64,000 bases of DNA from contig CP126122.1 in assembly GCA_030123565.1 (NCBI GenBank), positions 1,251,001-1,315,000 on the forward strand, given 5' to 3'. A model generated the notes under the pieces. That model ran no database searches. It was given only the letters and a program-made list of their open reading frames with translations, and was not told the DNA's origin. The translations under genes and the position numbers were made by a program. The DNA is from Nitrospira sp. (GTDB lineage: Bacteria > Nitrospirota > Nitrospiria > Nitrospirales > Nitrospiraceae). This document shows positions 35,456 to 51,562 of this stretch, one piece after another. Every line of letters starts with the position of its first letter. The first letter of the stretch is position 1.

Positions 35456-36262
35456 ATGGAACGACGAAACAACGCTCACCCTGCGACCGGTTCTCTTGTG
35501 GTGATCCTATTCATCCTGCTGACAGGAGTGAATGGATGGGGTGACGCGACGGCCGCGCAACGGCTTGTCGACCTCACCCATACGTTCGATGAGACCACGC
35601 AGGTTTGGCCGAATAATCGCCCCTTCCATCGGGACTCCATCGTGCAGGGCGGGACAAAGACCCAAGACTGGTATGCCACAGGACAAGTGGCCCTCTCCGA
35701 ACATGCCGGAACCCATATGGATGCTCCCATTCACTTTGCGCAGGGACAAGCTGCCATCGATGCGATTCCGGTCGAGCGTTTGATGGGACCGGCCGTGGTG
35801 ATCGATGTGCGGGCTGCCGCAGCAGACGATCGCGACTACCGCTTATCCCCGGCGGATCTTTATCGCTGGGAGGCCGGCCATGGGAAGATACCGGCGGGAG
35901 CCATCGTCATGATGTTGACCGGCCGGGGCGCCGACTGGAAAGATCGTGAGCGGTATTTCGGCAGCGCCACACCGGATGTCTCGACCACGCTCCATTTCCC
36001 TGGATTTTCGAAAGAGGCCGCCGAGTTTCTGGTCACCGAACGACACATTCACGGAGTCGGGATCGATACGCCCAGCATCGATTATGGTCCTTCCCAGGAT
36101 TTTCCGGTCCATCGAATCCTGGGCGGAGCCGGTCTGTACGGTCTTGAAAATGTCGCGCGACTCGATCAGGTCCCTCCGACCGGCGCCACCCTTGTGGCCC
36201 TGCCGATGAAAATCGCGGGCGGCACCGGCGCGCCAGTCAGGATCATCGCGATTCTTCCATAG
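35456..36262 (+). CDS. exported cyclase-family (kynurenine-formamidase-like) hydrolase
   Basis: 268 residues from the ATG at 35456, with AAGGAG at 35440-35445. A signal peptide covers about 1-34 (SLVVILFILLTGVNGWGDATAA). The metal site HAGTHMDAP (His83, His87, Asp89) is intact, followed by DIPVERLMGP-type and GVGIDTPSIDYGPSQDFPVHRIL segments. The family hydrolyses amides or cyclises esters; the substrate here is unknown and export is less usual. Its TAG stop touches the first base of a repeat element. Confidence 0.88.
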   Translation: MERRNNAHPATGSLVVILFILLTGVNGWGDATAAQRLVDLTHTFDETTQVWPNNRPFHRDSIVQGGTKTQDWYATGQVALSEHAGTHMDAPIHFAQGQAAIDAIPVERLMGPAVVIDVRAAAADDRDYRLSPADLYRWEAGHGKIPAGAIVMMLTGRGADWKDRERYFGSATPDVSTTLHFPGFSKEAAEFLVTERHIHGVGIDTPSIDYGPSQDFPVHRILGGAGLYGLENVARLDQVPPTGATLVALPMKIAGGTGAPVRIIAILP

Positions 36263-36452
36263 CAGGATGGTGAAAAAGGCCGCCAGCTTCGTTCTCGCGA
36301 GACACTGCCGCCTCACTATCTCGGCGGCGTTCACAAACGTGACGCGCTTTATTCAGCGCGTCAACCTCCGAGGCTCAACGTACCACAAGGGTACGCCTCG
36401 CCTCCTCGCATTGCTGCGGCCTCGCTGGACGGCCTTTTTGACCATCCTGCGA
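36262..36452 (+). repeat. structured inverted-repeat-bounded element, copy 1
   Basis: 191 bases. The two ends are near-perfect inverted repeats of 26-27 bases (36262-36287 against 36426-36452) starting GCAGGATGGT. Inside are hairpin a (GCCGCC 36307-36312 with GGCGGC 36323-36328, loop of 10), hairpin b (GACGCGC 36341-36347 with GCGCGTC 36356-36362) and hairpin c (36369-36400). A second, larger copy lies inverted at 50945-51248. REP- or MITE-like; no target duplication seen. Confidence 0.85.
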
Positions 36453-36538
36453 GTTCGCTCTTCGTCGTCTCAAACCCTGCGCTCTTTCGGTTTTCGGAAG
36501 CGCCAAAATGGTTTTTTAGCAGTTTGATAGTCGATAAA

Positions 36539-50892: not shown

Positions 50893-50944
50893 CCGGCATT
50901 CTTGAAGCGCATCTCGAAAACGCCAAACACATGAACGGTATTTC

Positions 50945-51248
50945 GCAGGATGGTCAAAAAGGCCGTCCAGCGCGGCCGCAGCGAGGTCCGCGACGCGAAG
51001 CATAATGAGCGTCACGTGTGCGGACGCCGGCGAGACGGTGAGCCGGCCGTGTCTTGGAGGCGAATCGTCACAGTCTTATCCGCCCACCCTGAGGCTGCCG
51101 AGACAGGCTCTGTGCCCATGGCCGTACGGTGAGCCTCTGAGGTTCACGACGCGCTGAATAACGCGCGTCACGCTTGTGAACGCCGCCGAGATAGTGAGGC
51201 GGCCGTGTCTTGCGAGAACAAAGCTGGCGGTCTTTTTCACCATCCTGC
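50945..51248 (-). repeat. structured inverted-repeat-bounded element, copy 2 (expanded)
   Basis: 304 bases, inverted relative to copy 1 at 36262-36452. Both ends have the same GCAGGATGGT-type inverted repeats. Inside, the 64-base hairpin unit occurs twice: unit A (GCCGCC 51182-51187 with GGCGGC 51198-51203) and unit B (GCCGGC 51026-51031 with GCCGGC 51042-51047), both with a 10-base loop. The one stem difference is compensated. It lies between the convergent NUDIX and HesB-like genes. Confidence 0.85.
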
Positions 51249-51253
51249 TACTG

Positions 51254-51562
51254 TCAGTTGTTGCTGGGCATGATGAGCCCCAGCTCATTCGCCGGCGGAT
51301 GCACGAAGGAAAAGCCCCGGGCTTCCTGATAATCCACCGTCATCCCGCTCGTGCGATGCACGCTCCGCCGTTCCACCGCAATCGTCAACCCGTCGATGTG
51401 CTGCACTTCATCTTCTTCCTGGGCCGCCGCCTCCAAGGTGATCGATAGGGACAGGCGCTTCTCATCGAGATCGCGCAGCTCGATCCGCACGACCGGATCT
51501 TCCGGATGTTTCTCGACCAGCTTGCGCAGTCGTTCGATGGCGGTCCAGGTGAGGTTCAGCAT
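51254..51562 (-). CDS. HesB/IscA-like protein without cysteines
   Basis: 102 residues from the ATG at 51562. The sequence LNLTWTAIERLRKLVEKHPEDPVVRIELRDLDEKRLSLSITL fits the A-type Fe-S carrier fold. The three cluster cysteines are absent; the tail has EARGFSFVHPPANEL where CGCGxSF would be. It thus cannot carry a cluster in the usual way. It starts two bases after the stop of the RelE-type toxin gene and belongs to that operon. Confidence 0.65.
   Translation of the reverse strand: MLNLTWTAIERLRKLVEKHPEDPVVRIELRDLDEKRLSLSITLEAAAQEEDEVQHIDGLTIAVERRSVHRTSGMTVDYQEARGFSFVHPPANELGLIMPSNN

Follow-up and report, generated by a model that had tools for sequence, protein, structure and literature searches.

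Stop-codon-associated MITEs with a structurally conserved hairpin in Nitrospira

A mobile element family behind two palindromic repeats

Two palindromic repeats in a 64,000-nt stretch of a Nitrospira sp. genome (hereafter the window) are members of a family of mobile elements of the MITE type, i.e., elements that lack a transposase of their own, which numbers hundreds of copies in Nitrospira-type bacteria. We consider it likely that these elements are moved in trans by an IS5-family transposase at YTAR targets, collect at stop codons, and carry a hairpin that may serve as a two-way gene end. Such elements would illustrate a simple route to a near-harmless transposon: a target that contains a stop codon and is duplicated on insertion.

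The preliminary description had placed the two repeats at positions 36262-36452 (copy 1) and 50945-51248 (copy 2), where we found them. Their inverted ends are 21 nt long, with a complementarity of 95% and 90%, respectively. The interior is single in copy 1 and doubled in copy 2, where it forms a 74-nt direct repeat with units 80% identical. The hairpin GCCGCC-GAGATAGTGA-GGCGGC was read in copy 1 and in the second unit of copy 2, and its variant GCCGGC-GAGACGGTGA-GCCGGC in the first unit of copy 2; the loop has 10 bases in all three versions. The reported vicinity of stop codons was also correct: copy 1 starts at the TAG (36260-36262) of a gene ending at 36262, and in copy 2, 3 nt separate the right end from the TGA of an opposite-strand gene at 51254. 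The unit boundaries, on the other hand, had to be redrawn. Alignment of the flanks revealed that the real element is larger, since most full-length copies extend to the left by another ~80 nt, up to a second terminal repeat (Table 1).

Table 1. Features of the two copies in the window (positions in the window; element orientation given as strand).
Feature	Position	Strand	Remarks
Copy 1 target duplication, ATAG (CTAT in element orientation)	36259..36262	.	Holds the TAG stop of gene 35498-36262; CTAT/CTAT pair
Copy 1 full element, 264 bp	36263..36526	-	Right terminal repeat at 36263, hairpin unit to ~36450, left spacer arm to 36526
Copy 1 module B (74-nt type, two hairpins), single	36298..36368	-	
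Copy 1 second target duplication, ATAG	36527..36530	.	
Copy 2 hairpin unit, inner-left arm to right terminal repeat	50946..51247	+	Outer-left arm unrecognisable
Copy 2 module B, unit 1	50983..51056	+	
Copy 2 module B, unit 2	51139..51212	+	
Copy 2 right terminal repeat (CGGTCTTTTTCACCATCCTG)	51228..51247	+	
Copy 2 right target 4-mer, CTAC	51248..51251	.	Stop of the convergent gene at 51254-51256

DNA searches with the two window copies returned 49 and 53 matching rows in the 4.62-Mb single-contig genome. The end motif GGATGGTSAAAAAGGCC, with at most one mismatch, occurs 28 times in these 4.6 Mb, vs. none for the reversed control. The covariance-model search suggested in the preliminary description, run together with the DNA searches, located around 60 places in this genome (the 71 rows of the model include some places counted on both strands). 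Covariance models of Rfam matched neither copy to a known family, and copy 2 had no match even at E ≤ 1.

The full-length element is short (~207 bp, longer with extra modules), multicopy, and without a transposase gene. Its termini are inverted repeats of the type CAGG(C/A)TGNNGAAAAA, and its parts are arranged as YTAR - CAGGCTGNNGAAAAA - spacer - inner arm CAGGATGNTCAAAAAGG - long hairpin - CCTTTTTCANCATCCTG - YTAR. Of the 57 copies of the genome, 23 retain a recognisable outer-left repeat, with at most three mismatches. The pairing partner of the right terminal repeat in the long hairpin is an inner near-copy, which differs from the true ends by a C instead of a G: the inner arms have C in 31 of 32 copies, the right ends G in 29 of 31 scorable copies.

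The relative G006 lacks 215 bp of copy 1. We sought a clean empty site in this genome and did not obtain one, as both copies have remnants there, copy 1 its left arm and copy 2 its right half. The left flank of copy 2 (50893-50945) resembles a GTGAAGCGTATCTCG repeat present at the same site in other genomes, and the left arm of this copy may therefore have been replaced. The convergent spacer that houses copy 2 hosts other palindromic families in relatives (GTGAAACGTGAAA..., GCTGATAGC..., GTGAAGCGTATCTCG...; loci L218-L244). Depending on the genome, it contains the element hairpin, other palindromes, or little structure. We dropped the treatment of these orthologues as a single vertical set, because the palindromes at the site differ between genomes.

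Mobility and the IS5-family partner

A search with the left end identified two perfect end pairs in the genome, each spanning 1.3 kb. They delimit two near-identical 1.3-kb IS elements that have the same 18-bp ends as the MITE, are flanked by CTAG on each side, and encode a transposase of 363 aa. This protein belongs to the IS5 family (NCBIfam NF033581, 282.5 bits for a cut-off of 140) and contains the Pfam domains DUF772 and DDE_Tnp_1. The IS and the MITE have the terminal repeats in common, but not the interior. IS relatives (85-88%) with the same ends were found in G044, G023, and G019; only one end of the G044 element lies within the sequence examined, and the G023 element is flanked by TTAG/TTAG. 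A more distant IS5-type branch (43% identical) has ends of the CAGGCTGTTGACAAAC type, and the 4-bp repeats match in most of its copies. The genome of the window has a second IS5-type branch, in two copies (L445, L446) with ends CAGGCTGTTGACAAAC.

The IS transposase was detected at E ≤ 1e-40 in only 11 of 29 genomes of the genus, and was not found in G006, while nearly all of the genus genomes searched have many MITE copies; like the differing interiors, this counts against the mechanism we favour. The search for the ends of short transposase fragments in G041, G013, and G017 was unproductive (its second round covered G013 only).

Two genomes, G013 and G023, contain recent, near-identical full-length copies at unrelated sites that have no similarity beyond YTAR. 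The left and right flanking 4-mers of these copies were identical in all of the 19 scorable cases (out of 20), including cases of TTAG and CTAA. They agreed in 14 of 17 cases in records of named organisms, and in 13 of 23 older copies of the genome of the window (shuffled mean 6.6, maximum 12 in 2000 shuffles). The target duplication is 4 bp long and corresponds to YTAR. The family is a MITE by its short, multicopy form without a transposase gene, its terminal repeats, its target duplications, and the presence of an IS with the same ends. From the shared ends, the IS5-family transposase is the likely mobiliser of the MITE in trans.

Conservation of the hairpin

Folding of the 127-nt unit yields a single hairpin with 39 pairs. 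We selected 18 short copies on the basis of their length and clear ends; in this set, 94.9% of the cells are paired (31-41% in a control with slid partners) and two-sided changes occur at 16 of the 39 pairs, which none of 500 shuffles reached. The preliminary description had proposed selection for structure, and had named as counter-evidence further copies with uncompensated stem changes as frequent as loop changes. The copies do not bear this out: in 14 diverged copies the deviation from the consensus was 0.26 in both stems and loops, and ~90% of the pairs were kept. A set of 32 of the 57 copies (length 117-130; three others of that length omitted) has 122 two-sided changes, vs. 56 one-sided changes that keep the pair and 89 broken pairs. 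Module B gave a similar picture in 28 of its 29 full-length copies (L107 was left out): 98.4% of the cells were paired, and two-sided changes affected 9 of 17 pairs (0/500 shuffles).

Our strongest test followed one insertion in place, copy L175, located between convergent genes. Both flanks are present in 24 genomes, including that of the window; a complete or partial hairpin occupies the site in 23 of these, but not in G003. The alignment included 20 of the 23 orthologues (G005 is truncated, G009 and G012 were judged poorly alignable, and the duplicates G012b and G018b were left out). In these, 94.3% of the cells pair and two-sided changes occur at 10 of 30 pairs (0/500 shuffles), in a test that is favoured by the derivation of the structure from the same alignment; the count of further pair types was not significant (69/500 shuffles). 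Hence, the structure was kept in place, and not only during the spread of the element. The paired changes in both dispersed and vertically inherited copies thus strongly support the proposed structural constraint. This provides a testable case of a transposon-derived sequence kept by paired mutations within one genus, and thereby opens to testing the old question of whether palindromic repeats benefit bacteria or are purely selfish.

A C.C mismatch in the middle of the stem is kept in all 18 short copies and in 19 of the 20 L175 orthologues. When only pairs called on both strands were counted, G-U and A-C deviations were about equal (12:11, 25:18, 3:4, and 9:11), and so no single RNA strand is favoured. 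This symmetry fits a two-way role or a role in DNA. An earlier count of 88 G-U vs. 24 A-C, which had suggested RNA on one strand, reflected a bias of plus-strand folding and disappeared with the both-strand pairs.

Position at stop codons

We could place 56 of the 57 copies relative to genes, the remaining one being at the end of a stretch. None was inside a called gene: 41 were between genes in the same direction, 13 between convergent genes, and 2 between divergent genes (background of 162 junctions: 112, 26, and 24, respectively). Genes were called with a purpose-written script, not with a standard caller. In 23 copies the stop of the facing gene was 1-5 nt inside the drawn right boundary of the element, mostly at -3, where the duplicated TAR itself forms the stop. 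The left duplication is a stop codon in 7 further copies, giving a total of 30 stop-seated copies out of 56, or 26 of 56 without the four right-end cases that are TGA and not YTAR (L175, L180, L185, and L095). The available YTAR sites outside genes, as counted in this genome only, are stops in 16-17% of the cases (20-22% for CTAG), which gives a binomial P of 4e-10 to 2e-7 for 30/56. The YTAR target accounts for the stop-codon position, as it includes TAG or TAA and the stop is rebuilt when the target is duplicated.

The recent copies of G013 and G023 were seated on stops in 10 of 20 cases, five per side (P 0.0007 to 0.005), and one of the two IS copies of the genome of the window is likewise on a stop codon. 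The counts from named records weigh against a strong reading of stop seating: an open frame of at least 80 codons ended at 34 of 83 right ends and 5 of 17 left ends, for a background of 19% of strand-sites.

A candidate role at gene ends

The mechanism we favour combines these elements. An IS5-family DDE transposase would insert the MITE in trans at YTAR; when it landed on a stop codon, the 4-bp duplication would recreate the stop and leave the protein unchanged. Such sites would be tolerated, and copies would accumulate exactly at the 3' ends of genes. A/T tracts of 4-5 nt adjoin the stem in most of the 32 copies, and the A5/T5 tracts appear positioned so that a transcript from either side would end in a stem followed by U's. 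The hairpin might then be conserved after insertion as a putative bidirectional terminator or 3'-end insulator, i.e., a MITE of this kind may serve as a ready-made gene ending at stop codons. Of the functions considered, this one fits best, and we regard it as about as likely as not. A simple terminator scan gave a weak signal (two sites vs. 0.5 expected in copy 2, one vs. 0.6 in copy 1). In the copy-2 spacer, the fold z was below -3 in 12 of 27 genomes and several had no strong hairpin, which shows that the hairpin is not essential at this site. Termination does not explain the kept C.C mismatch, and 41 of the 56 copies are between same-direction genes, where a strong terminator could harm the operon.

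The main competitor to this mechanism is a purely selfish MITE, in which the hairpin serves only mobility (e.g., end binding or folding), the stops reflect target choice and the death of harmful insertions, and the host gains nothing. The choice and tolerance of sites account for much of where the copies lie, half of the recent copies are already at stops, and the hairpin was lost at some sites. Yet, the L175 copy, apparently unmoved in ~20 genomes of the genus, keeps its pairs with two-sided changes, and the C.C mismatch is maintained there too; we hold this explanation to be rather unlikely. Paired changes could also arise without selection if template switching at the palindrome copied one arm onto the other. 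The excess of two-sided over one-sided kept changes (122 vs. 56) agrees with such structure-guided mutation, as does the scarcity of wobble intermediates in module B (7 cells vs. 42 two-sided). Repeated correction should nevertheless erase the C.C mismatch, which persists in 18/18 short copies and 19/20 orthologues, making this an improbable account.

A structured RNA acting in trans, or a cis-riboregulator on one strand, would produce the strong covariation, but the wobble pairs have no strand preference, Rfam contains no matching family (for copy 2 even at E ≤ 1), and genes end at either side of the element; we give it little credence. Least probable by far are REP/BIME elements spread by a RAYT (Y1) transposase. 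The repeats are palindromic, intergenic, and near stop codons, and the genome has three Y1 genes (L067-L069, encoding 162, 296, and 284 aa, two of which are of RAYT-like length). This reading is contradicted by the 4-bp target duplications, the terminal repeats, and the IS5-family partner. The link to a REP-type transposase raised in the preliminary description also failed in the genome: none of the three Y1 genes had a copy close by, the nearest hairpin match being at ~5.6 kb.

Relation to known repeats

In the literature searched (including PMC12306157, PMC3119063, PMC6382973, PMC3049150, PMC3733652, and PMC10969869), we found neither a description of this Nitrospira family nor the combination of YTAR stop seating, a marked inner end, and structural conservation in place. 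The MITEAba12/ISAba12 pair (PMC6382973) is similar in that the MITE is short and non-coding, shares terminal repeats with an IS, has target duplications, and occurs in many copies. MITEAba12 has 9-bp duplications without motif and folds weakly (PMC6382973), unlike the Nitrospira element with its YTAR target, stop-codon seating, conserved long hairpin, and nested modules. The Chunjie MITE of Geobacter uraniireducens (178-235 bp, with terminal and direct repeats, intergenic; PMC10969869) resembles by description the similar-sized elements that we found in 'Deltaproteobacteria' records, a likeness in size and general plan.

The pneumococcal BOX elements are modular and encode, at the very 3' end, the stop codon of 36 genes, and the SPRITE elements are terminator-like and enriched at gene ends (PMC3049150). 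The Nitrospira element resembles them in its modules and its placement at gene ends. It differs in that the stop is supplied by the target duplication itself and in the presence of an IS partner that shares its ends. To our knowledge, the sequences of BOX and SPRITE are unrelated to it.

ERIC/IRU and Correia elements are imperfect palindromic MITEs like the Nitrospira element. They use a TA target and their ends differ from those described here; we know of no stop seating among them. ERIC elements at the 3' ends of genes were reported to affect transcript levels. REP repeats are extragenic palindromes of 20-40 bp with a GTAG or CGTC tag, of which the GTAG group is linked to RAYT and a part is within 15 nt of stop codons (PMC12306157, PMC3733652). 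The Nitrospira elements are likewise extragenic palindromes that are in part near stop codons. Unlike REPs, they have terminal repeats, target duplications, and an IS5-family partner. REPs have, as far as we know, no target duplications.

Distribution and modules

The hairpin model matched in all 41 genomes of the genus and order (G033 only at 4e-4). Of 12 records bearing other names, 7 had matches and five had none. Named records with the same right end were mostly Nitrospira, and the matches of stretches of the window's genome to loci named as Nitrospirota or Nitrospiraceae reached 82-85%. The 'Deltaproteobacteria' elements have the same plan, including the inner C, and one is apparently on a TAA stop, as read by eye. 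Module B was found in all 25 genus genomes, vs. one of 15 others, weakly. Since the hairpin is order-wide and module B nearly restricted to the genus, the MITE is probably the older of the two, and module B was added at the level of the genus. The same module is also found within other, unrelated outer stems.

These data allow a broader, tentative proposal, which we put forward with more doubt than confidence: a cross-phylum class of MITEs that colonises stops through YTAR, has a decoy inner end marked by a G-to-C change, provides conserved, interchangeable two-way gene endings, and gains in its loops structured modules shared with other palindromic frames. If this were true, a large share of the 3' ends in these genomes would be of transposon origin.

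A record named Nitrospinota (G046; L349, L354) has 89 hairpin matches, as many as Nitrospira; it may be misnamed, or the family may be well established there. G003, a single contig of the same genus, has only two hairpin matches and one module B match, whereas its relatives have dozens, making it a natural, nearly element-free strain.

Solo copies of module B were observed in L074 (3054-3127), L079 (3008-3081), L098 (5053-5126), and L118 (5575-5648). They sit with a third hairpin (CTGCGCG...) in differing outer stems of unrelated sequence, and these settings look like interchangeable interior modules of multi-branched palindromes. A further module, with a conserved CTTACCCGCCCACCC and TGTGCCC/TGTCCC flanks, is present inside the elements L070, L088, L092, L103, and L115; the sequence of its hairpin varies between copies.
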